A DNA stretch of 16,425 nucleotides from Gemmatimonadota bacterium (lineage in GTDB: Bacteria > Gemmatimonadota > Gemmatimonadetes > Gemmatimonadales > Gemmatimonadaceae). Below, piece after piece: positions 779 to 16,425 of the stretch (positions are counted from its first letter, which is position 1; each line of letters starts with the position of its first letter). The position numbers and the translations under genes were made by a program. The notes under the pieces are model-generated. The model ran no database searches, was not told the origin of the DNA, and saw only the letters and a program-made list of their open reading frames with translations. The stretch lies in the NCBI GenBank assembly GCA_029884515.1, contig JAOUHR010000008.1, forward strand, positions 1 to 16,425. Reading direction: 5' to 3'.

Positions 779-812
779 CACGAGCCAGACGGTCCCGCAC
801 CACCCTTTCCAC

Positions 813-817
813 GAGGA
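813..817 (+). promoter_or_regulatory. Ribosome binding site of the tetrahaem cytochrome
   Basis: GAGGA lies four bases before the ATG at 822. It supports that start over the longer open frame reaching back to 705, which would overlap the upstream NHL gene and put unlikely residues before the signal peptide. Confidence 0.6.
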
Positions 818-821
818 ACCC

Positions 822-1517
822 ATGTCCAGACTTCGGCAATTCCTGCTCGTCGCGTCGAGCCTGGCGGCGATCGCCGTCGCCGCGCTCACTGTCCCGGTGG
901 CGCTCCTCGCCCAGGACAACATCGCGGTGACCAAGCACAACTTCTCGACGCTCTCGGGCCGGAATGCCGCGTTCACCGACATCTCCGCCGGCGTCGCCGA
1001 CTACGGCGAGATCTGCGTGTACTGCCACACGCCGCACGGCGGACAGACCGGCGCGCCGCTGTGGAACCGCGCCTTCGGCGCCGGACCCTACCAGATGTAC
1101 ACGAGCCCGACCATCGACATGGTGATCAACGCGGTCCCCGGCGACGTCTCGCTCGCGTGTCTCTCATGCCACGACGGTACCATCGGTATCGACGTCATCA
1201 CCAATCGGCCGAACTCGTCCGCCGCGGCGTCCATCGGCTCGACCATGGGCGTGCTCTTCCCGAGTGGTCCGGACGCGCTCAAGAACCTCGGGACCGACCT
1301 GCGGAACGACCACCCCATCGGGGTGACCTTCAGCACGCTCGACGCCGCCTTCAATACCCAGGCCAGCATCTCCGCAGCCGGACTCAAGTTCTACGGAGCG
1401 ACCGTCGACCGCGTGGAATGCGCGACGTGCCACAATCCACACAGCTCTACGAACATCCCGTTCCTGCGGCGGTCGAACGCGGCGAGCGCGCTCTGCCTCA
1501 CCTGCCACATCAAGTAG
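822..1517 (+). CDS. Tetrahaem c-type cytochrome, doubled-CXXCH family
   Basis: The product is 231 residues, with a Sec signal peptide (hydrophobic residues 7-30, likely cleavage near 'LLAQ'), so it is exported and receives haem in the periplasm. Four CxxCH motifs lie at residues 65-69 (in 'CVYCHTPHGG'), 113-117 (CLSCH), 200-204 (CATCH) and 225-229 (CLTCH), the last two residues from the C-terminus. A conserved 'KHN' at 38-40 before the first motif probably supplies a distal haem ligand. The pattern 'KHN ... C-x-x-CHTPHG ... PLWNR ... LSCHDG ... CxxCHNPH ... CLTCH' is typical of doubled-CXXCH (cytochrome c3-like) proteins in dissimilatory metal- and sulfur-metabolising bacteria. It matches the first 230 or so residues of the 12-motif cytochrome at 5595-7616, so the two are paralogues. 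It is probably an electron carrier; partner and location (periplasm or cell surface) are inferred. Confidence 0.92.
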   Translation: MSRLRQFLLVASSLAAIAVAALTVPVALLAQDNIAVTKHNFSTLSGRNAAFTDISAGVADYGEICVYCHTPHGGQTGAPLWNRAFGAGPYQMYTSPTIDMVINAVPGDVSLACLSCHDGTIGIDVITNRPNSSAAASIGSTMGVLFPSGPDALKNLGTDLRNDHPIGVTFSTLDAAFNTQASISAAGLKFYGATVDRVECATCHNPHSSTNIPFLRRSNAASALCLTCHIK

Positions 1518-1608
1518 GGCCACGCATCGTGAGCAGGGTATCCGGCCAACCGAACGGAACGATCGCGGGCGCGCGGGCTTCGCCCCGGCACCGGGGACCC
1601 CATCTTCC

Positions 1609-2601
1609 ATGGAAGGGGCCGTGAGTTGGCACGCGGGGCATGGGATCCCCGCACGGGTGGTGCTTGCGCTGGTCTCCTGCGTGCTGGGCGCGTCCGTCGG
1701 CTGTAGCCGGCGGACGCTTTCGGCATTCTTCGACCTGCCCCAGGCCGCTCCGGCTGCGGCGCCGGCTCCGACCGCCGCCACGCCTGCCACGGCGGCCGTG
1801 GCGCGCCCACCGGAAGCGGCTGGCGAACTGCCGCGCCCGGTGTTCGAGGGCACCCTGGATCCGGACAGTGCCATCAAGCTCCTGCCGCGCGACCATGCCG
1901 GGAACATCGACTGGGTCAGGGCGGCGGTCTCCGGTGTCATCCGACCCCGCGAGGCGCTTTCCGGCCGGCTTCCGGCGGATTCCTCGCAGTTCCAGTTCGG
2001 CTTCGACTTCCTGTTCCCCGGACCCGACACGCTCTTCGATGCCTTCTTCCCGCACTCGACACACACGCAGCTGCTGAGCTGTGCGACCTGTCATCCGCGC
2101 ATCTTCCCGCATCGGGACAACCCGATCAAGATGGGAGACATCCTCAGTGGCAGGTACTGCGGCGAGTGCCACGGCAAGGTCTCGTTCCCGGTGGTCACGG
2201 GGTGCGAACGGTGCCACATCCGGCTGCAACTTCCGCCCGACCGAGCCAAGCCCGAACTGATCGGGACGGTGACGCTGCTGCGCGTCTCCCCGGACAGCCT
2301 CCCGGACGGCGTCGTCCCCGGGAACTCGGCGGGGGTGACCACCCGTGCGCTGCCCTCGGCTGTGTTCCCGCACTGGGTGCACCGGGCTCGCTACGCGTGC
2401 AAGAGCTGCCACATGGAGCTGTTCATCCCCGTCGCCGGGGCGAACCGGATCACCATGAAGGACATCTCGGCAGGGAAGGCCTGCGGCGCCTGCCACGACG
2501 GAAGAACGGCGTTCGCGGCGGGGTTCGGCGCCTGCCAGCGATGTCATCCGGCGCCTTCGGCGACCGAACAGCCGGTACCTCCCCCCAGCGCACGGGAGTG
2601 A
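1609..2601 (+). CDS. Hexahaem lipoprotein with two c7-type trihaem domains
   Basis: The product is 330 residues. A hydrophobic stretch (about residues 15-31) ends at Cys32 ('ASVGC'), a plausible though imperfect lipobox; 'LVSC' at 21-24 is an alternative. An Ala/Pro-rich linker (45-72) probably tethers the protein off the membrane. Six CxxCH motifs fall in two sets of three: 158-162, 184-188, 199-203, and 264-268, 292-296, 309-313. Each set has the c7-type trihaem layout 'FPH-x2-H ... CxxCH ... F ... M-x-D-I-x-x-G-x-x-CG-x-CH-G ... F ... CxxCH', with histidines in 'FPHxxH' as likely axial ligands. It lies 7 bases upstream of the beta-barrel gene, suggesting a membrane-tethered relay feeding that barrel (inference). 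The start is uncertain: ATG 1609 has only a distant GGGGA (1593-1597), while GTG 1621 sits just after a purine-rich run. Confidence 0.9.
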   Translation: MEGAVSWHAGHGIPARVVLALVSCVLGASVGCSRRTLSAFFDLPQAAPAAAPAPTAATPATAAVARPPEAAGELPRPVFEGTLDPDSAIKLLPRDHAGNIDWVRAAVSGVIRPREALSGRLPADSSQFQFGFDFLFPGPDTLFDAFFPHSTHTQLLSCATCHPRIFPHRDNPIKMGDILSGRYCGECHGKVSFPVVTGCERCHIRLQLPPDRAKPELIGTVTLLRVSPDSLPDGVVPGNSAGVTTRALPSAVFPHWVHRARYACKSCHMELFIPVAGANRITMKDISAGKACGACHDGRTAFAAGFGACQRCHPAPSATEQPVPPPSARE

Positions 2602-2608
2602 AGCCGGC

Positions 2609-4546
2609 ATGCGGCGTTCGCGACGCGATCTCACCCCGCGGCTGGTACGCGTGCTGGCCGGCGTCCTGATCGGCGTGATGCCCGCGACCGTCGGTGCGCA
2701 ACTCATCCAGGTCACCCCAGGCGGCGGCGAATTCGGCGTGGAGGGGCGGAGCGTGCGCTCGGCGATCATCGGCGACGGCCGGGCGTGGGACACCTTCCTG
2801 AGCACCTGGGTCAGCTTCCCCGTCTCCGGGTCGGTCCTGACGCCCCGGCTCCTGACGTACCACGCGTCCTTCCGGCCGACACGTTCCCAGCAGACGATTC
2901 GTGGCCGTGAGTCGCCGCAGGAATCGAACTCGCTCGGCTTGAGCGTCGGCGCAAGCCTGCTGCCCGCTGCGGTCATCTCGGTGAGCGTGCACGCCGATCG
3001 GACGACCACGGCGTCGCCGAACGACCAGTTCGGTGCCAGCAGCACCTACCGGAACGGCTCCGCGGGGGGCCTCGCCCGGTTCCGGCTGCCGGCGTTCCCG
3101 CTTCGCTTCGAGTGGAACACGCTCGACCTCGCCGACTCCTGGAACCCCGCGTTCACGCAGGCGCCGATCCGGCGCGACGAGTCCCTCCACGTGCTCCGCC
3201 TGACGGGCGAGAGTTCGAAACTGACCACGTCGCTCGAGCGCCAGCGTTTCGTGGATCGCATCGGCGTCCTCGACTTCGCGTCGGACGCCGGCACGGCGCA
3301 ACACAGTCTCCGCTGGGGAACGGGAAGCAGCCTCACGTCGAGCCTCGAGGTGTACCGGCGTGAAGGGCGCGACCCGCAGCAGCGACGGCTCATCCTCGAG
3401 CACGTGCACCTGCGTCACTCACCGTCGGTCATGTCGGACCTCACCGTGCACCGCCAGCGCTTCCAGAGCGGCGGTGACTACGTCTCCGATGTCGCCACGA
3501 CGCTCCTCGCGGTCCAGGCGGATCCCAGGGAATGGCTCTCGGCGAACGTGAGTGGGAGCTACATGACCAACGACTACACCAACGGACAGGTGCGCATGCT
3601 GTCCACCACGCCGACGATCTCGGTGCGGCGCATGCTCCCGGGGGCTCTTCGGTTCGTGAGCTCCGTCGGCGCCAGCTACCAGCGCACCGACCAGCGGTTG
3701 AGCCAGGCGATCCCGATCCCGGTCTCGGACGAGTTGCATGTCGTGGATGCGACCCGGCGACTCCAGTTGCGCCACGAGCGCGTCGACGCACTCACGGTGA
3801 CCGTGTACAATCGGGATCGTACGGTGAGCTATCTCGAGGGGATCGACTATCGTGTGCTCACGCTGGGCGATCTCGTCCTGATCGAGATCCCGATCGCCAG
3901 CCGGATCCTGGAGGGGGACCAGCTCCTCATCGGCTACGCCTACGCCGCGCCGACGGCTCGCGCATACGATCTGCGTGGTGGCAGCGCCGCGCTCGCGGTC
4001 TCGCGCGGTGGCGTCTCGCTCAGCCAATCGGCGGTGCTCCGTCGCGCCCACACCCTCGCCGGTGACGATGCGCAGGGGCTCGAGGGCGGCGACGACTTCG
4101 TGTCGGCGCTCGACGTGCGCCGCGCCGTGGGCGACGGCCAGGCGACCCTGAACGCGCAGCATCGGGCCCGCCGGCGCGCACGGAGCGATTTCACCTCGTC
4201 CGAGTTGCGCCTCGGGTTCTCCCCGGCCGGTGGCACCGATCGGCAGACCACCTTCGGGGCCTCGGTGGCCCGGACGGGCGCCGCGGCGCAGGTCGCGACG
4301 GTGTGGGGCTCGTCTGCTTCCCTCCTGTGGATGATCAGGTCCGGCCTGCACCTGAACGCCGCCGCCGAGACGCAGGTGTGGCAGCTCAGGGATCGCGGCG
4401 CGGATCGCACGAACGTGTTTCGCCTCGACTTGCGCTGGCGCGTCGCGCGCCTCGAGACAGACTGGCAGTATCGGTGGCAACAGCGGAACACATTCGCGCA
4501 GCGGTCCGAACACCGCTTCTCGGCGCGCGCGGTGCGCCGCTTCTGA
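2609..4546 (+). CDS. Outer-membrane beta-barrel, putative cytochrome-conduit porin
   Basis: The product is 645 residues. A basic N-terminus and hydrophobic stretch (12-25) are followed by 'VGA-Q', giving likely cleavage after residue 30. The mature part shows alternating short amphipathic strands, many ending in aromatic or Arg residues. The C-terminus ends 'RAVRRF', with the terminal phenylalanine expected of BAM-assembled barrels. Near residues 395-445 is a soluble-looking unit ('DRTVSYLEGIDYRV ... I-x-SRILEGDQLLIGYAY') of a kind seen in large outer-membrane proteins of metal-respiring bacteria. The chain has no cysteine, so no haem or CXXC pair. GGGAG at 2594-2598 serves the ATG. The stop overlaps the next ATG (TGATG, 4544-4548). 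Between a hexahaem lipoprotein and further cytochromes, a porin sheathing a cytochrome wire is the best inference; a different transport barrel cannot be excluded. Confidence 0.8.
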   Translation: MRRSRRDLTPRLVRVLAGVLIGVMPATVGAQLIQVTPGGGEFGVEGRSVRSAIIGDGRAWDTFLSTWVSFPVSGSVLTPRLLTYHASFRPTRSQQTIRGRESPQESNSLGLSVGASLLPAAVISVSVHADRTTTASPNDQFGASSTYRNGSAGGLARFRLPAFPLRFEWNTLDLADSWNPAFTQAPIRRDESLHVLRLTGESSKLTTSLERQRFVDRIGVLDFASDAGTAQHSLRWGTGSSLTSSLEVYRREGRDPQQRRLILEHVHLRHSPSVMSDLTVHRQRFQSGGDYVSDVATTLLAVQADPREWLSANVSGSYMTNDYTNGQVRMLSTTPTISVRRMLPGALRFVSSVGASYQRTDQRLSQAIPIPVSDELHVVDATRRLQLRHERVDALTVTVYNRDRTVSYLEGIDYRVLTLGDLVLIEIPIASRILEGDQLLIGYAYAAPTARAYDLRGGSAALAVSRGGVSLSQSAVLRRAHTLAGDDAQGLEGGDDFVSALDVRRAVGDGQATLNAQHRARRRARSDFTSSELRLGFSPAGGTDRQTTFGASVARTGAAAQVATVWGSSASLLWMIRSGLHLNAAAETQVWQLRDRGADRTNVFRLDLRWRVARLETDWQYRWQQRNTFAQRSEHRFSARAVRRF

Positions 4547-5598
4547 TGCCCGGGTCGGTCGCCCGCGCGCTCCGCCGCCTCGTCCTCCCCACCGCCGCGT
4601 TCGCGACCCTCGGGAGTTGCACCTCCCACCCCGCGGGAGTCCGGTTCGAACCCACACTCGACCATCCGTCGCTGAGCTGGCCCGCGCCGCCGGGCCGGGC
4701 GCGGATCCGGTATCTCGCGAGCATCTCCACACCATCCGACGTCGGGGTCCGGCCGTCCATCCTCCGGCGCCTGATGAATGTCTTCACCGGGGCGGTGGCG
4801 CCACGCGTCCGCCAGCCATACGGGATCGCGGTGGATTCGCTCGGGCGCATCTTCGTGGCCGATGTCGTGGCCGGCGGCGTCCACCGCTTCGACCCGGCGC
4901 GCGGGGAGTACCAGTTCATCATCGCTTCGGAGCGCCCCGCCTTCCGGTCGCCGATCGGCGTCGCCGTCGGGGCGCGGGGCGACCTGTACGTGTCCGACAG
5001 CGAACTCGGGGTGGTCATCGTATTTCGCCCCGACGGCCGGGAACGCCGGCGCATCCGCGCCGGGCTGATCCGTCCGACCGGCCTCGCGTTCGACGCGGCA
5101 CGCGGCCTGCTCTGGGTGGTCGACACGCAGGGGCATCGGCTCGTCGCCTTCGATCGCGACGGCGTGGAACGCCGCGCCTTCGGCCACCGCGGAGCGGGGG
5201 CAGGCGAGTTCAACTTCCCGACGAATGTCGTGGTCGCACCCGACGGCACGCTGTACGTCACCGATGCGCTGAACTTCCGCGTGCAGGTGTTCTCCCCGGA
5301 CGGGGTCTTCCTGCGGCAGTTCGGTCGCCACGGTGATGCGGTCGGCGACCTCGCGCGTCCCAAGGGGATCGCGCTCGATTCCGAAGGGCATGTGTACGTC
5401 GTCGAGGGTCTGTACGACGTCGTGAACCTCTTCGATCCCGAGGGCCGGACGCTCCTTTCGTTCGGCTCGGCCGGACGGGGACCGGGCGAGTTCTGGCTGG
5501 CGACCGGGATCGCGATCGATCGCCAGGACCGCGTGTACGTGGGTGACTCGCACAACGGCCGCATCCAGGTGCTGCAGTACGTGACGGAGGACCGATGA
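4546..5598 (+). CDS. Six-bladed NHL propeller lipoprotein
   Basis: The product is 350 residues. The ATG at 4546 overlaps the stop of the barrel gene; the frame runs further upstream inside that gene, but starting here places a perfect lipobox, 'LGSC', with Cys25 as the lipidated residue. The segment 'WPAPPGRARIRYL' (45-57) precedes the propeller, as in other 6-bladed propeller lipoproteins linked to cytochrome genes. Six blades can be followed at about 90-120, 133-165, 175-207, 222-255, 269-300 and 316-346, for example 'GTLYVTDALNFRVQVF' (234-249). No catalytic residues or haem motifs are present, so a docking or scaffolding role on a membrane surface is inferred. No clear Shine-Dalgarno precedes the ATG, so translation is probably coupled to the barrel gene. 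It is a paralogue of the partial propeller at the left edge. Confidence 0.88.
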   Translation: MPGSVARALRRLVLPTAAFATLGSCTSHPAGVRFEPTLDHPSLSWPAPPGRARIRYLASISTPSDVGVRPSILRRLMNVFTGAVAPRVRQPYGIAVDSLGRIFVADVVAGGVHRFDPARGEYQFIIASERPAFRSPIGVAVGARGDLYVSDSELGVVIVFRPDGRERRRIRAGLIRPTGLAFDAARGLLWVVDTQGHRLVAFDRDGVERRAFGHRGAGAGEFNFPTNVVVAPDGTLYVTDALNFRVQVFSPDGVFLRQFGRHGDAVGDLARPKGIALDSEGHVYVVEGLYDVVNLFDPEGRTLLSFGSAGRGPGEFWLATGIAIDRQDRVYVGDSHNGRIQVLQYVTEDR

Positions 5599-7616
5599 CG
5601 CGACGGGGCCGCGCGTTCCGGTCCCTGCTGGCGCTGCCGCTCCTCGCGGCGGGGATCGCCCTTCCCCACCACCTCGACGCGCAGACCGGGATCCGTAACA
5701 CCAGGCACAACCTGTCCGCGTCGTCCCCCAACACGGTGCGCGCGGTGACGGAGACCGAGATCTGCGTCTTCTGTCACACGCCCCATGGCGGCCGGACCGA
5801 TGCGCCACTGTGGAATCGCGACTTCTCGGGGCAGGTGTACACGCCCTACACGAGTCCCTCGCTCCAGGGGGGCACGGGGCAGCCGAACGGATACTCGAAG
5901 CTCTGCCTCTCGTGCCACGACGGCTCGATCGCGCTCGGGGCGGTGACCAACACGCCGAACGGCAGCGCCGCGGGAGCGATCGCGATGACCGGCACGGCCG
6001 GTGATGGCACGATGCCCGCCGGCACGACGCGCATCGGCACGAACCTGCTCAACCACCACCCCATCTCGTTCGCGTACGACGACGCCGTCCGGGCCGCCGA
6101 CGGCGAACTCGCCGACCCCACGTCGCTGGTCGGTTCGGCCGTCCCCCTCTACGAGGGCGCCACGCCCGGGCTCCGCAACACCTTGCAATGCACCACCTGC
6201 CACGACCCGCACACGGATGCGTTGCCGAAGTTCCTGCGCCGCGACCCGCGCGGCCGCACAGGGTCCCTGTGCCTGACGTGCCACACGAAGCCGGGATGGG
6301 AGGGGAGCTCGCATGAGGCCTCGAGCGCCACCGTGACGATCGGTGGCGTGGCGACCGCGGTGAGTGCGCACTCCTGCTTCGCCTGCCATACGCCGCACGC
6401 ACCGACGGGCGCCGAGCGCCTGCTCAGGGCTGGCGCCACCGGCGGCGTATCGACCATCGAGCAGACCTGCTTCCAGTGTCACCAGGCCGCGGGGCCGGCA
6501 CGGAACATCCAGGGCGAGTTCGCGAAGAGCAGCCGGCACGACGTGGCGAGCGCCGCGACCGCCGGACGGCATCGCCCGGTCTTCATCACGACGCCGCCCG
6601 CGGGCCTTCCCGAGAACGTGCTGCTCCAGCCCGGGAATGCCGCGCCGGACGGCCGGTTCACCGACGCGCAGCACGTGGAATGCGTCGATTGCCACAATCC
6701 GCATCGCGCGACGGCCGCGAACAAGCTGGAGGGGATGCGCGGCATCAGCATCAGCGGTGCGGTGATCCCCAGCGTGCGCAACGACTCCTCCGCCGCGGGA
6801 CTCTCCGAGCAGTACGCGGTCTGCTTCCGGTGCCATGGCGACAGCTACGCGACGGCCCTGCCGGCCACGCTGCCCAGTGGACTGACGCCCCGCAACAAGC
6901 GCACCGAGTTGCAGCCGACCAACAGTGCCTATCATCCGGTGGCGGCCCGCGGCCGCAATCTCTCGGCGAACCTGAACGCGCAACTCACGCCGAACGGCCT
7001 GAGCGTCAACGCGATGATCCGCTGCACCGACTGCCACAACAGCGATGCCTTCGCCACGACCACCGGTCGTGTGGTCGGAGGGCCGACCAGCCCGTCAGGT
7101 CCGCACGGATCGACCAACGCGCCGTTGCTCCGCGCCAACTATCGGCGGGCGCCAGGCGCCACGTCCTTCTCGGCGGCCAACTTCGCGCTCTGCTTCCGCT
7201 GCCACAGCGCGAACGTCCTGCTCGGCTCGAACTCCGGTGCGTCGACGAACTTCGACGACCAGATCAACGGCAAGGACAACTTGCACTGGGTGCACCTCGA
7301 GGACCGCATCGACAAGTCGGGAGCGGTGTGCGCGAGCTGCCACTACAACGTCCACTCGAACCAGGAGACGACGACCACGCAGTACAACATCGACGGCGTC
7401 GTCTTCACCACGCCGCCCGGCGGCACCCCGACGCGCATGGTGAACTTCCATCCCAATGTCCGCGGCATCGGCGGGCGCCCGCGCCCCGAGTGGTGGTTCA
7501 ACACGGCGACTCGGGAGCGCCGGTGCTACCTGCAGTGCCACAGCCCGGCTGGCGGCACCGGCGGCGAGGTGATGAATGGATTGCAGTACCGGCCACCGAC
7601 CGGCGACGTGCCCTGA
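5595..7616 (+). CDS. Large multiheme c-type cytochrome (11 CxxCH plus one CX3CH)
   Basis: The product is 673 residues, with a signal peptide (hydrophobic 10-24, likely cleavage near 'LDAQ', 27-30). Canonical CxxCH motifs start at residues 57, 104, 199, 226, 261, 292, 363, 410, 477, 533 and 579. A twelfth site, C644-YLQ-C648-H649, has three residues between the cysteines. Residues 31-230 resemble the whole tetrahaem cytochrome at 822-1517 ('TRHN', 'CVFCHTPHGG', 'PLWNRDF', 'CLSCHDGS', 'CLTCH'). The rest adds further 'C-x-x-CHTPH', 'CxxCHNPH' and 'CFRCH' units of the doubled-CXXCH type. It is likely extracellular or outer-surface, and might be a terminal reductase or a filament-forming cytochrome; neither is proven. 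Its ATG overlaps the propeller stop (ATGA, 5595-5598), with GGAGG at 5586-5590. It is the last gene of the plus-strand block. Confidence 0.92.
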   Translation: MTRRGRAFRSLLALPLLAAGIALPHHLDAQTGIRNTRHNLSASSPNTVRAVTETEICVFCHTPHGGRTDAPLWNRDFSGQVYTPYTSPSLQGGTGQPNGYSKLCLSCHDGSIALGAVTNTPNGSAAGAIAMTGTAGDGTMPAGTTRIGTNLLNHHPISFAYDDAVRAADGELADPTSLVGSAVPLYEGATPGLRNTLQCTTCHDPHTDALPKFLRRDPRGRTGSLCLTCHTKPGWEGSSHEASSATVTIGGVATAVSAHSCFACHTPHAPTGAERLLRAGATGGVSTIEQTCFQCHQAAGPARNIQGEFAKSSRHDVASAATAGRHRPVFITTPPAGLPENVLLQPGNAAPDGRFTDAQHVECVDCHNPHRATAANKLEGMRGISISGAVIPSVRNDSSAAGLSEQYAVCFRCHGDSYATALPATLPSGLTPRNKRTELQPTNSAYHPVAARGRNLSANLNAQLTPNGLSVNAMIRCTDCHNSDAFATTTGRVVGGPTSPSGPHGSTNAPLLRANYRRAPGATSFSAANFALCFRCHSANVLLGSNSGASTNFDDQINGKDNLHWVHLEDRIDKSGAVCASCHYNVHSNQETTTTQYNIDGVVFTTPPGGTPTRMVNFHPNVRGIGGRPRPEWWFNTATRERRCYLQCHSPAGGTGGEVMNGLQYRPPTGDVP

Positions 7617-7623
7617 GCGCGCC

Positions 7624-8331
7624 CTACTCGCGGTTCCGCTTGCGGCCCAGCGACCAGACGTAAGCCGCGACGGCGTACACCTCGGCGTCGGTGAGCCGCG
7701 CGCCGCCACGCGGTGGCATCTCGATCCGGACGCGCGACCGGAAGGCCGGCACACCACTCAACACCGTGCCCACGATCGAGAGGTAGCTCCCCTTCGTGTG
7801 CAGCCACTCGGCGTCCGTGAGGTTGGGGCCCACGTCGCCCTTCGCCTCGGGCCCATGGCATCGGTGACAACCGCCGGGCCCCAGGAAGACCTCGCGCCCG
7901 CGCGCGATCAGTGCGGCGGTCACGGGCACCTGCAGCGAATCGTCCGGATGGCTCAATCGCCATACGTACGCGGCCACCGCCTGTGTGTCATGGTCGTCGA
8001 TCGCCGATCCGCCGCGCGGCGGCATCGCCACCCCACGGGCGGATTGCTCGATGGGCACCCCGTAGTTCACCAATTGCAGGATGGCCAGGTACGTCCCCTT
8101 CGCGTCCCACCATTCAGCGTCCGTCAGGTCCGGCCCCAGCAGGCCGCGCGCCTCGGGACCATGGCAGTTGTGGCAGTTGCCCTTGCCGCGGAAGATCTCG
8201 CGGCCGAGGCGCACCATGCCCGCGGTCACGCCGGGAGGGAGCGAATCGGGGACGTGCAACGATTGCGCCGCAGTGTCCGGCGCGGCGATGAGGCTCAACA
8301 GCGCGACGGCGAAGACGTTCCGGTGCGACAC
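7624..8331 (-). CDS. Dihaem class I cytochrome c
   Basis: The product is 235 residues, with a signal peptide (hydrophobic 5-17, likely cleavage after 'TAA', residue 22), hence soluble and periplasmic. Two tandem mono-haem domains are direct repeats of each other. Domain 1 (about 36-127) has CHNCH at 53-57, and domain 2 (about 137-230) has CHRCH at 155-159. Each continues with 'GPEA[RK]G ... GP[DN]LTDAEW ... KG[TS]YL' and 'MPPRGG', whose Met (103 and 205) is the expected sixth iron ligand, then a C-terminal 'AVAAYVW' helix. This Met/His-ligated fold, like the cytochrome domains of CcoP, generally has a higher potential than the bis-His cytochromes around it, so it may link this cluster to a respiratory complex (inference). 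The start is GTG with a good ribosome site. It is separated from the 16-haem gene by 156 bases and converges on the plus-strand block. Confidence 0.93.
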   Translation of the reverse strand: MSHRNVFAVALLSLIAAPDTAAQSLHVPDSLPPGVTAGMVRLGREIFRGKGNCHNCHGPEARGLLGPDLTDAEWWDAKGTYLAILQLVNYGVPIEQSARGVAMPPRGGSAIDDHDTQAVAAYVWRLSHPDDSLQVPVTAALIARGREVFLGPGGCHRCHGPEAKGDVGPNLTDAEWLHTKGSYLSIVGTVLSGVPAFRSRVRIEMPPRGGARLTDAEVYAVAAYVWSLGRKRNRE

Positions 8332-8487: not shown

Positions 8488-9966
8488 CTACGGCACGCCC
8501 GGGATCGCGCGCCCGTGGCACGCGATGCACACCGAGGGGTTCTTCGCCAGCGCCCTGGACGCGTTGAAGCCCGGCCCGTGGGGGTTGAACCGGTATCCGC
8601 CGCCCACGGCCGAATGACAGGTGGTGCAGTCGCGTTCCGCGTGGCACGACGCGCACGTCTCGAGGCTCTGCCGCGCCGCCTGGCCATGCCCGAGGCTGAA
8701 TCCGCGGAACGCGTCGTGGTAGCCCACGCGGCCGAGGCGTGCCGTCGCGACGAGCCCGGCCTGCTGGTGACAGCTCTGACAGAACTGCGCCGGGTTGTGG
8801 CAATCGCTGCAGTTGGCCTCACGGCTGTACGCGGGACTCGGATGCCGTGTGAGGAAGCCGGTGGCGTGATACTGCGACTCTGACCCGCCCTCCGGGCGAT
8901 GGCACTGCAGGCAGGTCTCGCGCAGGTGGCAGGTCTCACAGGACCGCGGCCGCGCATTCGCGTCCAGCCCGTGCCGCTCCCGGAACTCCGTCGTGTGGCT
9001 CAGCGGCGGCTTGCGCACGAGCCGCGCGCCGACTGCGCGTCCGGGGCCTGCCTCGGGGAGCGCCGCCGCGGCGCGGGGGGGGCCGCCCACGTGACAGGTG
9101 GTGCAGCTCGCGCGCGCGTGGCAGGTCGCGCAGGTCGCGTCGGAGCGCTGCGCCTGGCGACCGTGGCCGCGGAGGAATCCGGCGGCGGCGTGTGACGCCG
9201 GCACGGGCTGCGTGGTCGCGTAGGCCGGCGAACGGTCGTCGAGCCCGAGCGCACCGATCGCCGCGACCTCGGGGGCGTTCACGTGGCAGGCGAGACAGAA
9301 GTTCCGCGCATGGCACGTGGCGCAGCTCGCCGCGACCGGGGCCGGCTGCCCCCCATCGCCGTCCTGCTCGGCGGCCTTCCCGTGACCGCCGAGCACGAAG
9401 CCCGGCGCGTCGTGAGAAGCCGGCTTGGGAAAGGCCTTGATGTCGGCGGTGGTGAGGGCACGCGCCTCGGTGAGCCGCAGGTGACAGGTGGAGCAGACGT
9501 CACCGGGGTTGTCGATGTGCGTGGCCTTGAGCCCGTGACAGGACATGCACTGCGCGACGACCGCATGCTGCACGGCCATGCGGGGTGCGGACCCTTCGAT
9601 GTGACAGGCCGAGCAGTCCCGGATGAGCGCGCTGTCGGCCGGGTTCTTGGCCGCGGCAGAGAGGCTGTGCGCGTCGTGCGTGAAGCGCAGGTTGCTGGCG
9701 CGCGGGCCCACGCGCGGCTGCCAGTCGACCCGCTTCTGCACCGTGCCGTCATGGCAGGTGGCACAGCCCTCTGGCGAGGGCCAGAGCGACACCCCCGTCT
9801 CGACGACGCCCCGGTGACAGGCAACGCAGACCGGGAAGACCTTCGCGTGCTTCTCGTGCGGGAACGGCGGATCCGCCGTCCGGCTGGCCAGCGGGGCGGC
9901 GAGCAGGACACCCGCGACGAGCGCGCCGAGCCCCAGGGTGAGACCACCGAGCGCACGAAGTCTCAT
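8488..9966 (-). CDS. 16-haem c-type cytochrome with repeated dihaem modules
   Basis: The product is 492 residues, with an N-terminal signal or anchor (hydrophobic 6-27) and then 'FPHEKH' (35-40), as in c7-type cytochromes. Sixteen CxxCH motifs start at residues 47, 68, 118, 140, 158, 215, 224, 279, 288, 343, 352, 386, 396, 438, 447 and 480. From residue 185 onward the chain is modular: a histidine, a Phe, 'HG', then two haem motifs only 4-5 residues apart ('CATCHARNFCLACH', 'CETCHLRETCLQCH' and so on). There are five complete modules and a sixth reduced to one haem at the C-terminus. I do not recognise a named family. Such haem density fits a long electron wire threaded through or exposed beyond the outer membrane. 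The ATG at 9966 overlaps the stop of the barrel gene, which suggests coupled synthesis. Confidence 0.92.
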   Translation of the reverse strand: MRLRALGGLTLGLGALVAGVLLAAPLASRTADPPFPHEKHAKVFPVCVACHRGVVETGVSLWPSPEGCATCHDGTVQKRVDWQPRVGPRASNLRFTHDAHSLSAAAKNPADSALIRDCSACHIEGSAPRMAVQHAVVAQCMSCHGLKATHIDNPGDVCSTCHLRLTEARALTTADIKAFPKPASHDAPGFVLGGHGKAAEQDGDGGQPAPVAASCATCHARNFCLACHVNAPEVAAIGALGLDDRSPAYATTQPVPASHAAAGFLRGHGRQAQRSDATCATCHARASCTTCHVGGPPRAAAALPEAGPGRAVGARLVRKPPLSHTTEFRERHGLDANARPRSCETCHLRETCLQCHRPEGGSESQYHATGFLTRHPSPAYSREANCSDCHNPAQFCQSCHQQAGLVATARLGRVGYHDAFRGFSLGHGQAARQSLETCASCHAERDCTTCHSAVGGGYRFNPHGPGFNASRALAKNPSVCIACHGRAIPGVP

Positions 9967-11507
9967 GGCAGCGTCCTCCGCGCCTTCGGCAGCGGTGACC
10001 GGTCGGCGCCGGAGCCGAACACGAGGCTCAATCCTCCCCGGAGACGCACCTGCGACAGCGAGGATGCGCCGGCGTCGGGCCGCTCGCGGTCGTCGTTGAC
10101 GAACGCGACGTCGGCCCAGACGCGCCGCTGCGCGTGGAACGTCCACTCCCCGCGGCCGCCGACCCACCGGCTGGTGGCGTCGTAGTAGCGCAGCTCGAGC
10201 GGACGGGCCATCGTGCCGCCGTAGAGGTCGAACGCGATGCGCTCCGATGGCGCGAACGTCACGGCCCCGTCAGCGAAGCGACCCGAGGCTCCGGGGCCTC
10301 GCTCGAGGCTGTACGTCCCGCTGAGCGTCCAGCGCGGATCGACGGTCGCCGTCACGCCGGCGCTGGCGCGCCATCCGCGGTCCTGCAGGTCGGGGACGAG
10401 GGCGGTGGAGACCTCCGCGTCCGCATAGCGGTACCGTTCGCCGCGCGCGTTCACCGTCAGCCACTCGGTGGGCCGCGCCTGTACGGAGGCGTTCACGGCG
10501 TTGTAAGGCACGGGGCTGAAGGCACCCCAGAGCGTCCAGAGACTGAAGTACGGACGATACCGGCGCACGCCGCCCGACAGGGAGACCTTCCGGCGCATGT
10601 AGGTCACCGTGAGGTCGCCGCTGCCCAGACGGGCCTCGGCCATGTTGTAGTCCAGTCCGCCGCTCACGCGGAAATCCGCGGCCCGCGCGCCCATCGAGAT
10701 CGCCGTCCGCTCCGACACGAAGTAGTGGTCCTGCGGGTCGATCTCGCGACGGTACTCGGCGCGAAGGTCCACGTTGTCCTTGTAGAGCCACGCCGCCTCG
10801 GCGCCGGCGACCAGCTGCCGGTCGCGCGGGCGCCACTCGTCGAGCGGATTGAGCGCCGGGCTCGTCGCGACCAGCGCGCTCGCCTGCCCCAGGCCCCAGC
10901 CGCCGTATCCGGTCACCTCGAGCGCCGCGCGGTTCCAGCGGTAGCGGAGCCAGCCGCCATCGAACCCCATCGGCTCCAGTCGGGACGCGATGAGCTGGCG
11001 CCCCGCGCGCGCGATGATCGCGGCGCGCTCGTACTCGAGGTAGCCCTCGATGAGCTGCGCCGACGGATCGGTCCCTGGCCACACGAGGTCGCTGCCGAGG
11101 TCGGCCATCAGGCGTCCGGTCGCGCGGAAGGCGAGCCCCGGCGTGCCCAGGCCCCAGACGACGACGCTCGCCGAGGTGGTCATCGGCACCCCGCGCAGGA
11201 CCGCGCCGGGGCGTGTGTAGTAGCAGAACGCGGTCGCTCCGCATCGCACGGCATGGCCGTCGGGCGTCTCGAGGCCGCCGTTGGCCGCCGTCACCACGAG
11301 CGAGGCATCGATGCTGTCGGTCACGAGCGCGCGGAGGGAGACCCCCTGGGCACGCGTGTCGAGGCGTACCCGGTAGTTCTGGCCGCCGACCACTGCCGGG
11401 ACGACGGCGCACGCCAGCAGCAGGGCGAACGCCACGCACCGGCCACGCCCTCCGACGGAGGCCAGCCGTCGCGACGTCGGGCCAGGCGCTGGTGGGCGTC
11501 GCATCAT
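9963..11507 (-). CDS. Outer-membrane beta-barrel of the second cytochrome cluster
   Basis: The product is 514 residues. Hydrophobic residues 25-40 end in 'VVGGQ', suggesting cleavage near 42; 'LLAC' at 30-33 resembles a lipobox but is unusual for a barrel. The mature chain is a series of amphipathic strands rich in Tyr, Trp and Arg with short turns ('LRYRWNRAALEVTGYGGWG', 'VTYMRRKVSLSGGVRRYRP', 'TLSGTYSLERG'), as in porins. Two cysteines, C89 and C94, lie close together near the mature N-terminus. The last strand 'LRGGLSLVFG' is followed by a polar tail, so the usual terminal aromatic is not the last residue. It shows no obvious sequence likeness to the 645-residue barrel in the other block. 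ATGA overlaps at both ends, with 9-haem and 16-haem cytochromes, make it the likely porin of a cytochrome conduit. No clear Shine-Dalgarno is present. Confidence 0.78.
   Translation of the reverse strand: MMRRPPAPGPTSRRLASVGGRGRCVAFALLLACAVVPAVVGGQNYRVRLDTRAQGVSLRALVTDSIDASLVVTAANGGLETPDGHAVRCGATAFCYYTRPGAVLRGVPMTTSASVVVWGLGTPGLAFRATGRLMADLGSDLVWPGTDPSAQLIEGYLEYERAAIIARAGRQLIASRLEPMGFDGGWLRYRWNRAALEVTGYGGWGLGQASALVATSPALNPLDEWRPRDRQLVAGAEAAWLYKDNVDLRAEYRREIDPQDHYFVSERTAISMGARAADFRVSGGLDYNMAEARLGSGDLTVTYMRRKVSLSGGVRRYRPYFSLWTLWGAFSPVPYNAVNASVQARPTEWLTVNARGERYRYADAEVSTALVPDLQDRGWRASAGVTATVDPRWTLSGTYSLERGPGASGRFADGAVTFAPSERIAFDLYGGTMARPLELRYYDATSRWVGGRGEWTFHAQRRVWADVAFVNDDRERPDAGASSLSQVRLRGGLSLVFGSGADRSPLPKARRTLP
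9974..9979 (-). promoter_or_regulatory. Ribosome binding site of the 16-haem cytochrome
   Basis: On the minus strand GGAGGA lies seven bases before the ATG at 9966. This fixes the start there rather than at the far upstream end of the open frame (10167), which would add 67 Arg/Ala-rich residues before the signal peptide. Confidence 0.7.
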
Positions 11508-12286
11508 CGCGGCTGCGGCGTGAGGAGCTTCGCCCGGTACGCGGCGGGATCAGCGAGGAGATGACACACCGTGCATTCCCGCGCGTCGTGGTGGTCCTTG
11601 GCCTTCGCCGCGTGGCAGGTGGCGCACAGCGCGCGAGTGGGAGTGAGCTTCGCGACGGTCGTCGCCGTGTGGCAGGCGTCACACCGCTGGTGCGTCACGT
11701 CCGGCAACGGGTGGGCGACCTTGGGATCGGCGAGCTGGTGGCACGACGAGCAGTCGGCGGCCTTCGCATGGTGTTCGGTGTGGCAGGCCTGGCACGTGAC
11801 CACCTCCGTCGCCGGGGCGAGCGTCACGGGCGTGGTATGGCACTCCACGCAGGAGCTGCTCACGTGCTTCTCGTGCAGGAACGCCACGGTCCGCGGCCGC
11901 GGCGCCTGTCCCGGCACCGTGATCGTCACGGTCTCCTGCTTCGGCGTCCCGTAGTCCGCCGGCCGGTGGCAGCTGCCACACTTGTCCGGCGCGGGCGCCT
12001 GGTGATGACAGATCGCGCAGCCGCGCGGGGGCTCGAACGTGAGCCGTCCGTGGCCGGAGCCCGTCGCATGACAGGTGAGACAGGCCACTGATGTATGCCG
12101 GGCATGCGGGAACGAGTCCGCCGCGCCCGGCGCCGGCACTGCGGCCTGGCTCGCCACCGGCGGCTCCACACGCGCTGCGCCGGCCGCGCCCGCGACCAGC
12201 ACGAAGGTCGCGGCGGCGATCCAGCGTGCGCCTCGCAGGCGCGAGGCCGGCCGGCCGCGGCGCGCAGCGGGGATGACGGGCTCCAC
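11504..12286 (-). CDS. Nine-haem c-type cytochrome with N-terminal signal anchor
   Basis: The product is 260 residues. A basic N-terminus precedes a hydrophobic stretch (22-37) that may be a cleaved signal ('GAAGA') or an uncleaved anchor. Nine CxxCH motifs start at residues 69, 90, 103, 146, 165, 179, 202, 221 and 238. 'FPHARH' (59-64) and 'FLHEKH' (136-141) each precede a haem motif, like the ligand-providing 'FPHxxH' of c7/c3-type cytochromes, and extra histidines ('HTEHH', 'DHHD') can supply bis-His ligation. At about one haem per 29 residues it is a compact wire, comparable in role to MtrA-type periplasmic cytochromes, though it is not clearly homologous to MtrA. It precedes the barrel gene with an ATGA overlap, so insertion into that barrel is a reasonable inference. 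It starts at GTG; an upstream stem-loop may affect its expression. Confidence 0.92.
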   Translation of the reverse strand: MEPVIPAARRGRPASRLRGARWIAAATFVLVAGAAGAARVEPPVASQAAVPAPGAADSFPHARHTSVACLTCHATGSGHGRLTFEPPRGCAICHHQAPAPDKCGSCHRPADYGTPKQETVTITVPGQAPRPRTVAFLHEKHVSSSCVECHTTPVTLAPATEVVTCQACHTEHHAKAADCSSCHQLADPKVAHPLPDVTHQRCDACHTATTVAKLTPTRALCATCHAAKAKDHHDARECTVCHLLADPAAYRAKLLTPQPR

Positions 12287-12382: not shown

Positions 12383-13957
12383 TCACTTGCCCGGCGGCGT
12401 GCGCGAGACGTGCATCGAGCGATTGAACTCTCCTCCGATGGGGCCGGCCAGCACGGCCGGCTGCCCGTCGCGCAGCGGCACCGAGACGCCATAGAAGCTT
12501 TGAATATAGTTGATCGTCGCGATGAGCAACGACTCGCACAGGAACGGATTGTGGATCCCCTTCGAGTTGTCGCTGTTCCCCTGTCCGAACTCGCCGCACA
12601 GCCGCGCGTTGAACTCCGCTCCCTCGGCGGGAGAGACACGATTGTCGGTGCCACTCCATTCCGTGGGCTGGGTCGAACGCACCAGCGGGAGCAGCCCCGC
12701 GTCGGTCGGCGACGCCTGCATCGACCCGCTGCCGTTCGTGTCGATCCAGAGCTGGTCGGCATAGAACTTCATGCGTGCCCGCACCGTGCCGAAGGCGTTC
12801 GCCGCCACCGCTGCTGACGCGTGGCATCCCGACGCCGCGCACGTCTGCCACGACCTGGCCGTCGACGTGTACGCGCAGGTCTTGTCCGCCGTCGGCTTGC
12901 CGGTCGGGTCGAGGCACGGGATCGGCCGGAAGAGGTGACCCGTGGCCTGGAAGGTGAATGAGCCAGTGAGTGGGTCGTTCACCGTGAACCGCCCCACGTG
13001 GCAGCCGGCGCAGAGCTTCGGGTTCGCCGTCGTGGCGTGCGAACCGAAGATGCGCGCCGTGTCATACACGAAGCCGGGTGGCCGCCAGCCGGCGAACCCG
13101 AGGAGCATCGCGCCCTGCGGAGCATGCGGCGACGCGGTGCCGTACCCCGTGAGCTCGGGCTCATAGCGCCGCAGGTGGCACTTCATGCAGAGATTCTGTT
13201 CTGGATCCTGTGTCGAGACCGCGAAGCGGAGCTGATGCTCGTTCGAGGATCCGTGCGGGTTGTGGCAGACGGCGCAGGTCGTTGGCTGGTAGGCCGTCGC
13301 GACGTCCCGCTCCTGATAGTTGGCCTCGACGCCCCAAGCCGCGAGCGCCCCGCGGCCGTCATGGCAACTCTTGCACGAGGCGTTCCCGGCGCGGCTCGCA
13401 TTCACGATCGCGTGTCCGGACTGGGCCCACTCCTCCGCGAACGGGTTATGGCTCCCGGTGTGGCAGTCGGCGCAGGTTCCAGCGCCTCCGGCTGCGAGCT
13501 TCGCGAGCGGCCGGACCACCGTGCCCTGCCCCACGCCTTCCACGTGTGTCAGACCCGCGCCGTGGCAGCTCTCGCACTGCACGTCGAAGTACGCCGAGTC
13601 CGCGACCTTGGCATATGCGACCGTGGTCCCGCTCGCGGCGTTCCCGTTCCCATTCACGGTGTGGCAGCCGTAGCAGGACGCCTGCGCGCCGGGGTTCGCG
13701 ACCAGCGACGCATACGCGCCGGCATGCTTCGTGGTCTTCCACTTCGCCTGATAGCTCGAGTGGCAGTTGCCGCAGGTCGTCTGCTTGACGGACGCGTCGT
13801 AGTAGCCGAGGAATCCGGACGCGGCGTCCGGCGGCGGGTTGAACGGCGCCCGGTCGCGGTAGACGATCTTGGTCGCGCTGTCGCAGCCGGCGAAGGAGAC
13901 CGTCAGCGCGTACGCCGCGGCGACGAGCAGGAGGGAACGGAGATTCGCGGTGCGCAT
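12383..13957 (-). CDS. Multiheme lipoprotein cytochrome (8 CxxCH plus one CX4CH)
   Basis: The product is 524 residues from the ATG at 13957, which has AGGGG just upstream; a GTG at 13993 would add 12 residues and spoil the signal. The signal 'LLLVAAAYALTVSFAGC' makes Cys25 the probable lipid site. Canonical motifs start at residues 62, 95, 128, 162, 195, 228, 257 and 316. C373-AASG-C378-H379 has four residues between the cysteines, a spacing known from some cytochromes c3. The first part ('CGNCH ... W-K-T-T-KHAGAYASL ... CYGCH ... CESCHGAG-x-x-H') resembles cytochrome c554-type proteins, and the C-terminal part has a long segment with 'HNPFLCESLL' (469-478). It heads the minus-strand block and is divergent from the NapA-like gene. 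It may be an outer-surface reductase or donor; a specific substrate cannot be named. No CxxCK motif is present, arguing against an NrfA-type nitrite reductase. Confidence 0.9.
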   Translation of the reverse strand: MRTANLRSLLLVAAAYALTVSFAGCDSATKIVYRDRAPFNPPPDAASGFLGYYDASVKQTTCGNCHSSYQAKWKTTKHAGAYASLVANPGAQASCYGCHTVNGNGNAASGTTVAYAKVADSAYFDVQCESCHGAGLTHVEGVGQGTVVRPLAKLAAGGAGTCADCHTGSHNPFAEEWAQSGHAIVNASRAGNASCKSCHDGRGALAAWGVEANYQERDVATAYQPTTCAVCHNPHGSSNEHQLRFAVSTQDPEQNLCMKCHLRRYEPELTGYGTASPHAPQGAMLLGFAGWRPPGFVYDTARIFGSHATTANPKLCAGCHVGRFTVNDPLTGSFTFQATGHLFRPIPCLDPTGKPTADKTCAYTSTARSWQTCAASGCHASAAVAANAFGTVRARMKFYADQLWIDTNGSGSMQASPTDAGLLPLVRSTQPTEWSGTDNRVSPAEGAEFNARLCGEFGQGNSDNSKGIHNPFLCESLLIATINYIQSFYGVSVPLRDGQPAVLAGPIGGEFNRSMHVSRTPPGK

Positions 13958-14198
13958 GGTGCCCCTGGGGCGAGGGTAGAATCCTGCTTTCACTCATGAC
14001 CTGCTGCAGCGCCTTCCGCAACCTGTCTCAGGCTGCACGTACTACTTAAGAAACGGGACAACGCGGAACAGTCGGGCTTTCCCTGCGCCTGTGTCGGGCG
14101 TCTGCTTGAACTTTCTCGCGAATCTCGGTACCGCCGGCCGCTGTCTCGGGAGGGAGCCGCGCGGAAGACAACAGGATGTCCAGCTGTACCGGGGTTCG

Positions 14199-14305: not shown

Positions 14306-14365
14306 ACGGCGGCCGGACCCCCGCGTCGCGTCGCGACAGACCACACCACCCACGCCCGAGGAATG

Positions 14366-16425
14366 ATGCGATCTGTCGATCGGCGAACGTTCCTGCACGG
14401 CATGGCGGCGGCATCGGCGATCACGGCCGGTTCCGCCGTCACGCCGAACGGGACGCTCCTCGCCGGCAACGACCTCGGCGCTGACAGCGGACGGGACGCG
14501 CTGGAGCCCACGTGGCGCAAGACACCCTGCCGCTTCTGCGGCGTGGGATGCGGACTGCTCGTCGCGATCGAACGCGGGCGCGCGGTGGCGGTCAAGGGCG
14601 ACCCGGACTCGCCGGTGGGCAGCGGACTCGCTTGCGCAAAAGGCTACTACTCCATCCAGGCGCTCTACGGACCGGACCGGATCACGCGTGCGCGCATCCG
14701 CCGCGACCAGGCCCTCGAGCCGGCACCCATCGGCGAGGCGCTCGACCTCGTCGCGCGCCGGCTCCGGGAGACGGTCACGCAGCACGGCAAGGACAGCGTC
14801 GCCCTCTACGGCTCCGCGCAGTGGTCGATCGCGGACGCCTATGTCGCGTCCCGGCTCTTCAAGGGGGCGCTCGGCACGAACAACGTGGAGACGAGCTCGC
14901 GCCTCTACGCGGCCAGCGCGATGGCCGGCCTCCAGACCACCTTCGGGCTCGACGGCGCCGCCGGCTGCTATGAGGACATCGAGCACGCCGACATCTTCGT
15001 GCTCTGGGACGTGAACCTCGCGGAAACGGACCCGGTGCTCTTCTCGCGCATGCTCGCCCGCCGGCGAGCCGACCCCGCGGTGCGCGTCATCGACCTGGCG
15101 ACGCGGACGACGCGCACCAGCTACGCCTCCGATCGGTCGCTGCTCCACGCGCCGCACTCGGCAGCGGCCATCGCGAACGCCATCTGCCAGGAGATCGTCG
15201 CGCGGCGGTGGGTCGACCGCGCGTTCGTCGATGCGCACGTGGCATTCCGGAAGGGGAGGACGGGGATCGGCTACGGGCTCGCCGGCGACGCTCCCGTCAT
15301 TGACGACCCCACCGCCGTGACGTGGGATGCGTACGCGAGGTTCCTGGATGACTACACGCCCGAACGCGCGGAGCAGCGCTCCGGCCTGTCCGCCGGGAGC
15401 ATCCGATGGCTGGCCTCACTCTACGGTGACCGCACCAAGAAGGTGATGTCCGTCTGGGGCGCCAACGTGAACCAGCATGCGCGCGGCACCTGGATGAACA
15501 ACCTGCTGTACAACATCCACCTGCTGGTGGGGAAGATCGCGACGCCCGGGAACGGCGCGCTGGCGCTCACCGGGCAGCCGAGTGGCGGCGCGGCGGTCCA
15601 CGACGCGGGGAGCCTGACCGAGACGCTGCCGCGCGGGGTGGTCGAGAATGCGGAGGATCGGCGGCGCGCGGCCGACATCTGGGGCGTGCCGGTGGAACGG
15701 CTCGACGCGAAGCCGACCGACCGGACCCTCCCGCTGCTGCGCGCACTCGAGTCGGGCCGGATCCGCTTCCTCTGGATCCAGGCGACCAACCCGATGGTCA
15801 GCCTGCCGAACCTCGACCGGTATCGCCGGGCCGCAGCCAAGGCGGGCGTCTTCCTCGTGGTCTCGGAGGCCTATCCGACGCCGACGACGGACCTCGCGGA
15901 CGTCGTGCTCCCCGCGGCGATGTGGTTCGAGCGCGAGGGGATCTTCGCGAACGTCGAGCGGCGCACGCAGCACTTCGACCAGCTGGTGGCGCCCCCTGGC
16001 GACGCCATGAGTGACGCCTGGCAGATGATCGAGGTCGGGCGCCGCATGGGGTTCGAGGCGCTCTTCCCGTGGTCGCGCCAGACGCACGTCGAGCGGATCT
16101 GGGAGGAGTACCGCCGCTTCCACGACGACCCGGGGAGCTCGCTGGCGCCGTACGCGGTCCTGAAGGAGCGCCCGGGCGTCCTCTGGCCGTACGTCGCCGG
16201 CCGCGAGACGCGGTGGCGCTACAATCCGGAGCACGACCCGGCCGCCGAGGCATCGCGCGGCGCCTTCGACTTCTACGGCCACCCGGACCACCGGGCCTGG
16301 ATCTGGCTGCGGCCACAGGAGCCGCCCGCCGAGTCGCCCGACGCCGCGTATCCGCTCTGGCTGCGCACGGGCGCCGTCCTCGAACACTGGGGCACGGGCT
16401 CCATGACGCAGCGGATCCCGACGCT
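14366..16425 (+). CDS. NapA-family molybdopterin oxidoreductase, Tyr at the Mo-ligand site, 3' truncated
   Basis: The frame stays open to the window edge; about 686 of the roughly 830 residues usual for NapA are visible. 'DRRTFLHG' near the start and the following Ala-rich stretch form a Tat signal, so the folded enzyme would reach the periplasm. A 4Fe-4S motif C55-x2-C58-x3-C62-x27-C90 is followed by Lys92 ('CAKGYY'), which bridges the cluster and pterin in NapA. Further NapA hallmarks are 'GCYEDIE', 'VNQHARGTWMNN', 'GKIATPGN', 'LTGQPS', 'NVERRTQ' and 'LEHWGTGSMT'. In 'NNVETSSRLYAASAMAG' Tyr181 takes the place of the Mo-ligating Cys of NapA ('ARHCMASA') and NasA ('SRLCMSSA'), so the substrate is uncertain. 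Two ATGs lie at 14363 and 14366; GAGGA at 14358-14362 favours the second. No NapB, NapC or NapD gene is visible. Confidence 0.9.
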   Translation, partial: MRSVDRRTFLHGMAAASAITAGSAVTPNGTLLAGNDLGADSGRDALEPTWRKTPCRFCGVGCGLLVAIERGRAVAVKGDPDSPVGSGLACAKGYYSIQALYGPDRITRARIRRDQALEPAPIGEALDLVARRLRETVTQHGKDSVALYGSAQWSIADAYVASRLFKGALGTNNVETSSRLYAASAMAGLQTTFGLDGAAGCYEDIEHADIFVLWDVNLAETDPVLFSRMLARRRADPAVRVIDLATRTTRTSYASDRSLLHAPHSAAAIANAICQEIVARRWVDRAFVDAHVAFRKGRTGIGYGLAGDAPVIDDPTAVTWDAYARFLDDYTPERAEQRSGLSAGSIRWLASLYGDRTKKVMSVWGANVNQHARGTWMNNLLYNIHLLVGKIATPGNGALALTGQPSGGAAVHDAGSLTETLPRGVVENAEDRRRAADIWGVPVERLDAKPTDRTLPLLRALESGRIRFLWIQATNPMVSLPNLDRYRRAAAKAGVFLVVSEAYPTPTTDLADVVLPAAMWFEREGIFANVERRTQHFDQLVAPPGDAMSDAWQMIEVGRRMGFEALFPWSRQTHVERIWEEYRRFHDDPGSSLAPYAVLKERPGVLWPYVAGRETRWRYNPEHDPAAEASRGAFDFYGHPDHRAWIWLRPQEPPAESPDAAYPLWLRTGAVLEHWGTGSMTQRIPT

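Follow-up and report, generated by a model that had tools for sequence, protein, structure and literature searches.

The window analysed here, a stretch of 16,425 bases that makes up an entire Gemmatimonadota contig (C68), carries a series of genes for multihaem cytochromes and, at its end, a gene for a protein related to the periplasmic nitrate reductase NapA (Table 1). The assembly is fragmented (2.74 Mb in 548 contigs, 77% complete), and the gene could not be completed in the way an initial annotation of this DNA had proposed: searching the rest of the genome with the C-terminal portion of a relative yielded no continuation. Besides a single 19.8-bit match at C17, no other match to the protein was found in the genome. 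A Tat signal (RRTFL) lies at its N-terminus, and the solved structures closest to it in sequence are those of the NapA proteins from C. necator, E. coli and R. sphaeroides (E values of about 1e-147 to 1e-160). Two NCBIfam NapA models score it at 640 and 625 bits against cut-offs of 904 and 930.55, the protein being shortened by the contig end.

Table 1 Features of the window (positions on the forward strand of the contig)
Feature	Position	Strand	Remarks
Block with two NHL propellers and 4-, 6- and 11-CXXCH cytochromes	2..7613		Co-oriented; also a 645-aa barrel-like open reading frame without a Pfam match
Cytochrome c with two mono-haem domains	7627..8331	-	Cytochrome_CBB3 / Cytochrom_C; separates the two multihaem blocks
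16-CXXCH cytochrome with MtrC/MtrF-like domain	8491..10014	-	Start uncertain (frame open to 10167)
514-aa protein, probable outer-membrane barrel	9966..11507	-	No Pfam match; context suggests a barrel; shares 68% identity with the copy in L011
9-CXXCH cytochrome	11507..12286	-	18-CXXCH protein in the same place in several relatives
8-CXXCH cytochrome	12386..13993	-	Divergent from the NapA-like gene; relatives adjoin several further loci; start codon not certain
NapA-like protein without the Mo-ligating Cys	14363..16423	+	Open frame, start at 14363 or 14366; cut by the contig end at residue 686-687 of about 780
[4Fe-4S] ligands Cys55, Cys58, Cys62, Cys90 and relay Lys92	14528..14641	+	Retained in 16/16 non-Cys rows covering them
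TAC codon, Tyr181 in the Mo-Cys column	14906..14908	+	Column of E. coli Cys179, by alignment
First pterin patch, altered (residues 214-221)	15005..15028	+	WDVNLAET for NapA WGANMAEM; E. coli 212-219; patch as in PMC13223375
Substrate loop, altered	15581..15610	+	SGGAAVHDAG for NapA SACGTxREVG; Cys to Gly, and Arg near the nitrate site to His412
Second pterin patch, altered	16367..16396	+	TGAVLEHWGT for NapA TGRVLEHWHT; E. coli 718-727; patch as in PMC13223375

The Cys ligand expected of a NapA nitrate reductase is absent from the window protein, as it is from its close relatives in the clade described below. Alignment with the three NapA proteins of known structure runs without gaps through this column (NARHCMASA against SSRLYAASA) and places Tyr181 there, in agreement with a MAFFT alignment to E. 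coli NapA, and the Met next to the Mo ligand is replaced by Ala182. The CX2CX3CX27C Fe-S motif and the relay Lys of NapA are present. On all of these points, and on the loss of a Cys and an Arg from the substrate loop, the initial annotation had read the sequence correctly. Selenocysteine at the Mo column was rejected as a candidate, since all seven loci flagged with one TGA have TGC or TGT there; the stop lies near the C-terminus in L097 and L099, and none lies within the aligned part of L090 and L105-L108. The fold model is that of an ordinary NapA and does not separate non-Cys from Cys types. A disordered active-site loop was likewise not discriminating as a mark of the non-Cys type (block pLDDT of 43 in the non-Cys L003 versus 58 in the Cys control L010).

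The homologue search and alignment at the Mo column drew on 76 loci fetched from genome contigs and on the top 30 loci of a search in 395 genomes of the phylum, giving 97 aligned rows after duplicate removal, with the window and E. coli NapA included. Five loci identical to others over residues 61-600 were removed (L087, L088, L094, L095 and L096), and second copies identical over the same range were left out (L080, L081, L083, L084, L085 and L128-L130, the originals being, in order, L050, L003, L008, L007, L053, L006, L011 and L004). Cys occupies the Mo column in 79 rows and Tyr in 13, with one row each for Phe (L004), His (L011), Thr (L100) and Glu (L102), and one that is gapped or too short. 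Because 16 further relatives also lack Cys at this position, the change in the window goes beyond chance, and the missing Mo-Cys is confirmed as real rather than a sequencing error.

Sixteen of these 17 non-Cys rows, referred to below as the core, form one clade with an SH-aLRT support of 97 in a quick tree built without the active-site columns from 73 of the 97 rows (3 short rows dropped, 21 thinned). The clade is nested among Cys-type NapA of Gemmatimonadota, which indicates that its ancestor was probably of the Cys type; with the remaining row, L098, counted too, a single change suffices, but the support is 50. Its members are spread over families and over at least two orders of Gemmatimonadota. 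All 17 non-Cys rows come from Gemmatimonadota except L005, a 70% identical relative on a 7.5-kb contig of a MAG labelled Candidatus Zixiibacteriota, which may reflect transfer or mis-binning. Within the window's order, 17 of 288 genomes match at E <= 1e-200, 14 of them with the non-Cys type, G013 with the Cys type, and G104 and G328 with a Cys-type subfamily that is more distant. The window's genus has 16 other listed genomes, and as none of them matches at this threshold, the distribution is patchy. The carriers of NapA relatives without the Mo-Cys are some bacteria of one phylum, known mostly from environmental DNA so far. The distinct subgroup suspected in the initial annotation is thereby found conserved in many genomes, most members with enough flanking sequence lying beside multihaem cytochromes.

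Further replacements accompany the ligand change. In E. coli numbering, the core has mostly Ser for Asn175, Ala or Gly for Met180, Asp for Gly213, Leu for Met216, Asp for His220, Gly, Ala or Thr for Asp264, varied residues for Met372, His for Arg418, Ala or others for Arg720, Gly for His726, and Thr, Ser or others for Lys819. At the Arg418 column, the 17 non-Cys rows have His in 14, Glu in 2, and Arg in L098 only. Lys83 is retained in all 16 non-Cys rows covering the position, Gln150, Asn215 and Glu218 in all 17, and Trp212 is also kept. The conserved residues of the pterin patches are reported to include Gly213, Asn215, Glu218, Arg720, His724, Trp725 and His726, and Arg354 of the D. desulfuricans enzyme, probably the equivalent of E. 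coli Arg418, is given as a possible nitrate site (PMC13223375). The initial view that the pterin-binding regions are kept holds only in part, both patches being altered. The remaining positions of the MGD and Mo sites, including Asp264, Lys819 and Met372, we take to be those of the UniProt site list.

Among 186 positions invariant in Cys-type NapA, the core has lost 34, not counting the four Fe-S cysteines, none of which is lost. The comparable losses are 1/181 in Cys-type Gemmatimonadota, 8/183 in Bacteroidota and 15/230 in classic NapA, the reference for these counts leaving out six distant Cys rows, the partial rows L072, L073 and L105, and L056. In the two published pterin patches alone, losses are not significantly enriched (4/13 versus 30/173 elsewhere, p=0.26). 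On the assumed list of Mo/MGD sites the core has lost 9/25 positions versus 25/161 elsewhere (p=0.023), a list towards which classic NapA leans likewise (5/31 versus 10/199, p=0.036). Of 33 lost sites examined in the core, 17 are variable. In the other 16 a new residue has become fixed (among them Asp at 213, Asp at 220 and His at 418), which suggests new constraint and not decay alone. Both drift and new constraint are thus seen in the core.

E. coli requires NapD for Nap activity, and a role in inserting the Mo cofactor is attributed to this protein (PMC4159696). Using a model built from E. coli NapD and eight loci, and within the family that has the NrfD operon, we detected napD up to 1.5 kb upstream in 54 of 56 Cys-type loci versus none of the core non-Cys loci, 15 in number, including two with just 431 and 974 bases available; L101, with no upstream sequence, and L058, with 87 bases upstream, are not in these counts. 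On either strand, no napD was found in the window or in 18 fetched non-Cys stretches, three of which are second copies, and the sole remaining fetched stretch, L111, which carries L098, does contain it. Across whole genomes, PF03927 has no match in any of 12 core non-Cys genomes. The genome of the window (G000, 77% complete) shows none. Matches occur in G319, where L098 is located, and among 17 other genomes in 10, with only 5 of these 11 passing the cut-off. As the loci are related, the loss of napD represents one or a few evolutionary events, and the locus counts overstate independence.

A possible order of these losses is seen in L098, which has Tyr at the Mo column while retaining napD and 21/25 residues of the assumed Mo/MGD sites. 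By this evidence, changes at the ligand and at residues near the Mo may have come first, and the loss of napD and of the remaining pterin contacts later. L091, in which Cys is kept and napD is absent, is a caution against a strict order. It lies in a genome (G013) listed as 99% complete that has no PF03927 match, and it is one of the two Cys-type loci without napD. The other, L056 (G327), has a short frame (549-597 aa) and a long branch and is possibly another decaying copy. Absent Moco synthesis is not supported as proof of Mo loss, since the genes are present in most genomes: among 13 non-Cys genomes, MoeA is found in 13, MoaC in 12 and MoaA in 10. The matches to MobA all fall below the cut-off, and the control was unspecific. 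G319 has neither a MoaA nor a MoaC match, although it is listed as 98% complete.

The operon downstream was read in relatives as far as their contigs reach, the window contig ending before it. Both types are followed by a five-haem cytochrome, a four-haem cytochrome, a Tat-signalled Fe-S protein resembling DsrO and QrcC, and an NrfD-family protein. In the core non-Cys loci read, five haem motifs are present in the first cytochrome in 14/14 and four in the second in 13/13, and the Fe-S protein has 15-16 Cys within its last 240 residues in 13/13; the five-haem slot contains only four such motifs in L010, as it does in the loci of other phyla that were read. The NrfD-family protein of L011 passes the DsrP cut-off (398.7 versus 350 bits). 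Similar clusters have been described in MAGs from an Oslofjord tunnel, in which a multihaem cytochrome, a 4Fe-4S protein and an NrfD-type subunit lie downstream of Nap genes in two MAGs, an NrfD-type cluster of this kind lies downstream of a porin-cytochrome complex in one MAG, and NrfD-type gene clusters occur near nap, nxr or porin-cytochrome genes (PMC10732223). They differ in also carrying actD-type genes, and the passages describing them mention no lost Mo ligand.

On the upstream side, the barrel-like protein and multihaem cytochromes flank nine non-Cys loci (the window, L007, L011, L050, L053, L110, L112, L114 and L116), with cytochromes of 8, of 9-18 and, in eight of the loci, of 16 CXXCH motifs. 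L003 has the cytochrome part of the block only, followed by the contig end. The block and the NapA-like gene are divergently oriented in all but L114, whose version is 30-40% identical and shares the strand of that gene; the block is not found upstream of L004, L006 and L103, for which 1.9-3.7 kb are available. A conduit specific to the non-Cys type is ruled out, as 30-42% identical versions flank the Cys-type loci L009, L016 and L028. As for the other multihaem block of the window, the one with the NHL propellers, several of its genes have relatives in G190 (L119), where they precede a Cys-type napA on its upstream side.

The ratio dN/dS is 0.14-0.20 in seven non-Cys pairs versus 0.06-0.18 in three Cys pairs. 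The mean pairwise difference of NapA, taken as a ratio to that of the Fe-S protein and to that of NrfD, comes to 2.2 and 1.5, respectively, in 66 non-Cys pairs, and still to 2.0 and 1.3 without the two most divergent; the corresponding values in Cys pairs are 1.3 and 1.0 in Gemmatimonadota (21 pairs) and 1.0 and 0.8 in others (136 pairs). The non-Cys protein is maintained, but less tightly than its operon partners. Its frame is complete in 12/16 core rows, and those of the window, L101 and L103 are cut by contig ends. In L004, at about 2,830-2,890, the reading frame of the twin-arginine motif differs from that of the remaining protein, so that the signal-peptide part is out of frame, through either a true frameshift or an assembly error.

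Several known systems resemble this arrangement in part. Cys-type NapA is NapD-linked and encoded in NapA-cytochromes-FeS-NrfD operons of Gemmatimonadota, Desulfobulbales and Bacteroidota, from which the clade is set apart by its lack of the Mo-Cys, Met180 and napD, its altered pterin patches, and His for Arg418. A likeness in function may be seen in QrcB of the quinone reductase QrcABCD, a Mo-family subunit without a Mo ligand that is described as lacking a redox cofactor (PMC13059093). Its companions are an NrfD-like subunit, an Fe-S protein and a multihaem cytochrome, the same set that the relatives of the window gene have downstream. The window protein scores 65.2 bits against the QrcB cut-off of 440, far below it even for a protein cut by the contig end; it descends from NapA and keeps the relay Lys, which the one QrcB examined lacks, and the membrane subunit of L011 passes the model for DsrP and not that for QrcD. 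The Asp of a PGTD-like motif was ruled out as a clean marker, as one QrcB keeps it; in the second NapA-like open reading frames L054_0 and L055_0 this Asp is Asn and the Mo-Cys is kept.

ActB of alternative complex III is likewise described as having lost Mo, its complex containing a pentahaem cytochrome together with subunits of the NrfD-like kind (PMC10100899, PMC8076601), and as being without Mo/W-bisPGD (PMC10100899); the complexes of QrcB and ActB both include NrfD-like subunits (PMC8076601). ActB is traced to an ArrAB-like fusion (PMC10100899), in contrast to the NapA ancestry seen here, and its fusion of Mo-like and Fe-S domains is not seen in the relatives, which have a separate Fe-S gene downstream. 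AioA and IdrA hold Mo without a protein ligand (PMC10100899). The window protein, cut as it is, reaches 69.4 bits against the AioA cut-off of 359.05, and it has the four-Cys Fe-S motif of the NapA type.

Taken together, the lost residues, the single clade, the missing napD, the preserved Fe-S motif and the operon of the relatives point to a subunit derived from NapA, probably free of Mo, that transfers electrons within a quinone-multihaem complex, similar to QrcB and ActB and separate in origin, a reading to which we assign a probability of roughly 60%. A former periplasmic nitrate reductase subunit would no longer reduce nitrate. Having lost its Mo ligand along with residues of the nitrate site and several contacts to the pterins, it probably no longer receives Mo-bisMGD, and with its [4Fe-4S] cluster motif kept it may serve as a structural or wiring subunit of a membrane complex. 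Its putative partners in a single complex are the DsrP/NrfD-like quinone subunit, the Fe-S protein, and the five-haem and four-haem cytochromes. Electrons would be carried between the quinone pool and periplasmic cytochromes, by a route and in a direction that we infer, and the cytochromes probably link on to the outer-membrane barrel/multihaem conduit in several genomes, including that of the window. The initial annotation had taken the changed ligand as a possible sign of another substrate, a view that is not supported here. Tyr was dropped as a leading candidate for a new, conserved Mo ligand, because a column that varies among Tyr, Phe, His, Thr and Glu, and admits even Phe, makes this role unlikely; the variable column, the changed pterin contacts, the absence of napD and the divergence in excess of the partners fit a loss of Mo chemistry better than a new ligand.

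Some features count against a Mo-free subunit: the protein retains its relay Lys as well as Gln150, Trp212, Asn215 and Glu218, 16/33 lost sites are newly fixed, losses are not significantly enriched in the published pterin patches, most genomes have Moco-synthesis genes, the fold model is ordinary NapA, and napD is lacking from two Cys-type loci too. An alternative to which we give clearly less credence, yet which survives best among the rivals, is that Mo- or W-bisMGD is still bound, either without a protein ligand as in AioA and IdrA or with Tyr loosely placed, and that the protein catalyses another reaction fed or drained by the cytochromes. The retention of Lys83, Gln150, Asn215, Glu218 and the Fe-S motif, the newly fixed sites with Asp213, Asp220 and His418 among them, the purifying selection, the Moco genes and the existence of ligand-free Mo sites (PMC10100899) would all be in line with such an enzyme. 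It agrees poorly with the chemically unlike residues at the ligand position, the absence of napD and a subunit more diverged than its partners. Nor does it readily explain why Asp264, Lys819 and Met372, which we again assume to be UniProt sites, together with Arg720, which is one of the published patch residues as well, are replaced by varied residues. More doubtful still is the fuller proposal that Mo or W is held by the two pterins only, within a rebuilt second sphere (Tyr, Phe, His, Thr or Glu at 179, Asp213, Asp220 and His418), for a novel reaction coupled via NrfD and the outer-membrane multihaem conduit.

A decaying nitrate reductase that is heading towards a pseudogene and is kept merely by its operon position could account for the eroded active site, the divergence above that of the partners and the out-of-frame signal peptide of L004. 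We consider this improbable in view of the complete frame in most core rows, the low dN/dS, the Fe-S cysteines kept in the 15 core rows covering them, and the spread of the clade over families and orders. Sequencing, assembly or binning error, which the fragmented window assembly might suggest, has next to no plausibility and is already excluded for the clade, as independent assemblies share the change and the correlated residues, an argument that the initial annotation had already drawn from the other active-site changes, and as the Tyr codons differ (TAC in the window, TAT in L050).

None of the literature matches listed, judged by titles and abstract starts, concerns this clade, which is not proof of its absence from print. 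A survey of the superfamily from 2023 reports three independent losses of the Mo/W cofactor, with FhcB, Nqo3 and ActB discussed there, lists NapA with a Cys ligand and checked each surveyed sequence for the expected ligand (PMC10100899), and a NapA phylogeny from 2025 covers cultured organisms only (PMC12769810). A clade of the present kind would escape both by virtue of these designs, as far as the two sources describe them. Counts of 'napA' genes in Gemmatimonadota would overstate the nitrate-reducing potential of the phylum. If the reading as a Mo-free electron-transfer subunit is true, the clade would be a separate case of Mo-subunit conversion, arising from NapA, besides QrcB and ActB. 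Wherever the contigs extend far enough, the operon is the same in Cys-type sisters, in the intermediate L098 and in the fully altered members, which makes the conversion of a catalytic Mo subunit to an electron-transfer subunit testable stepwise.
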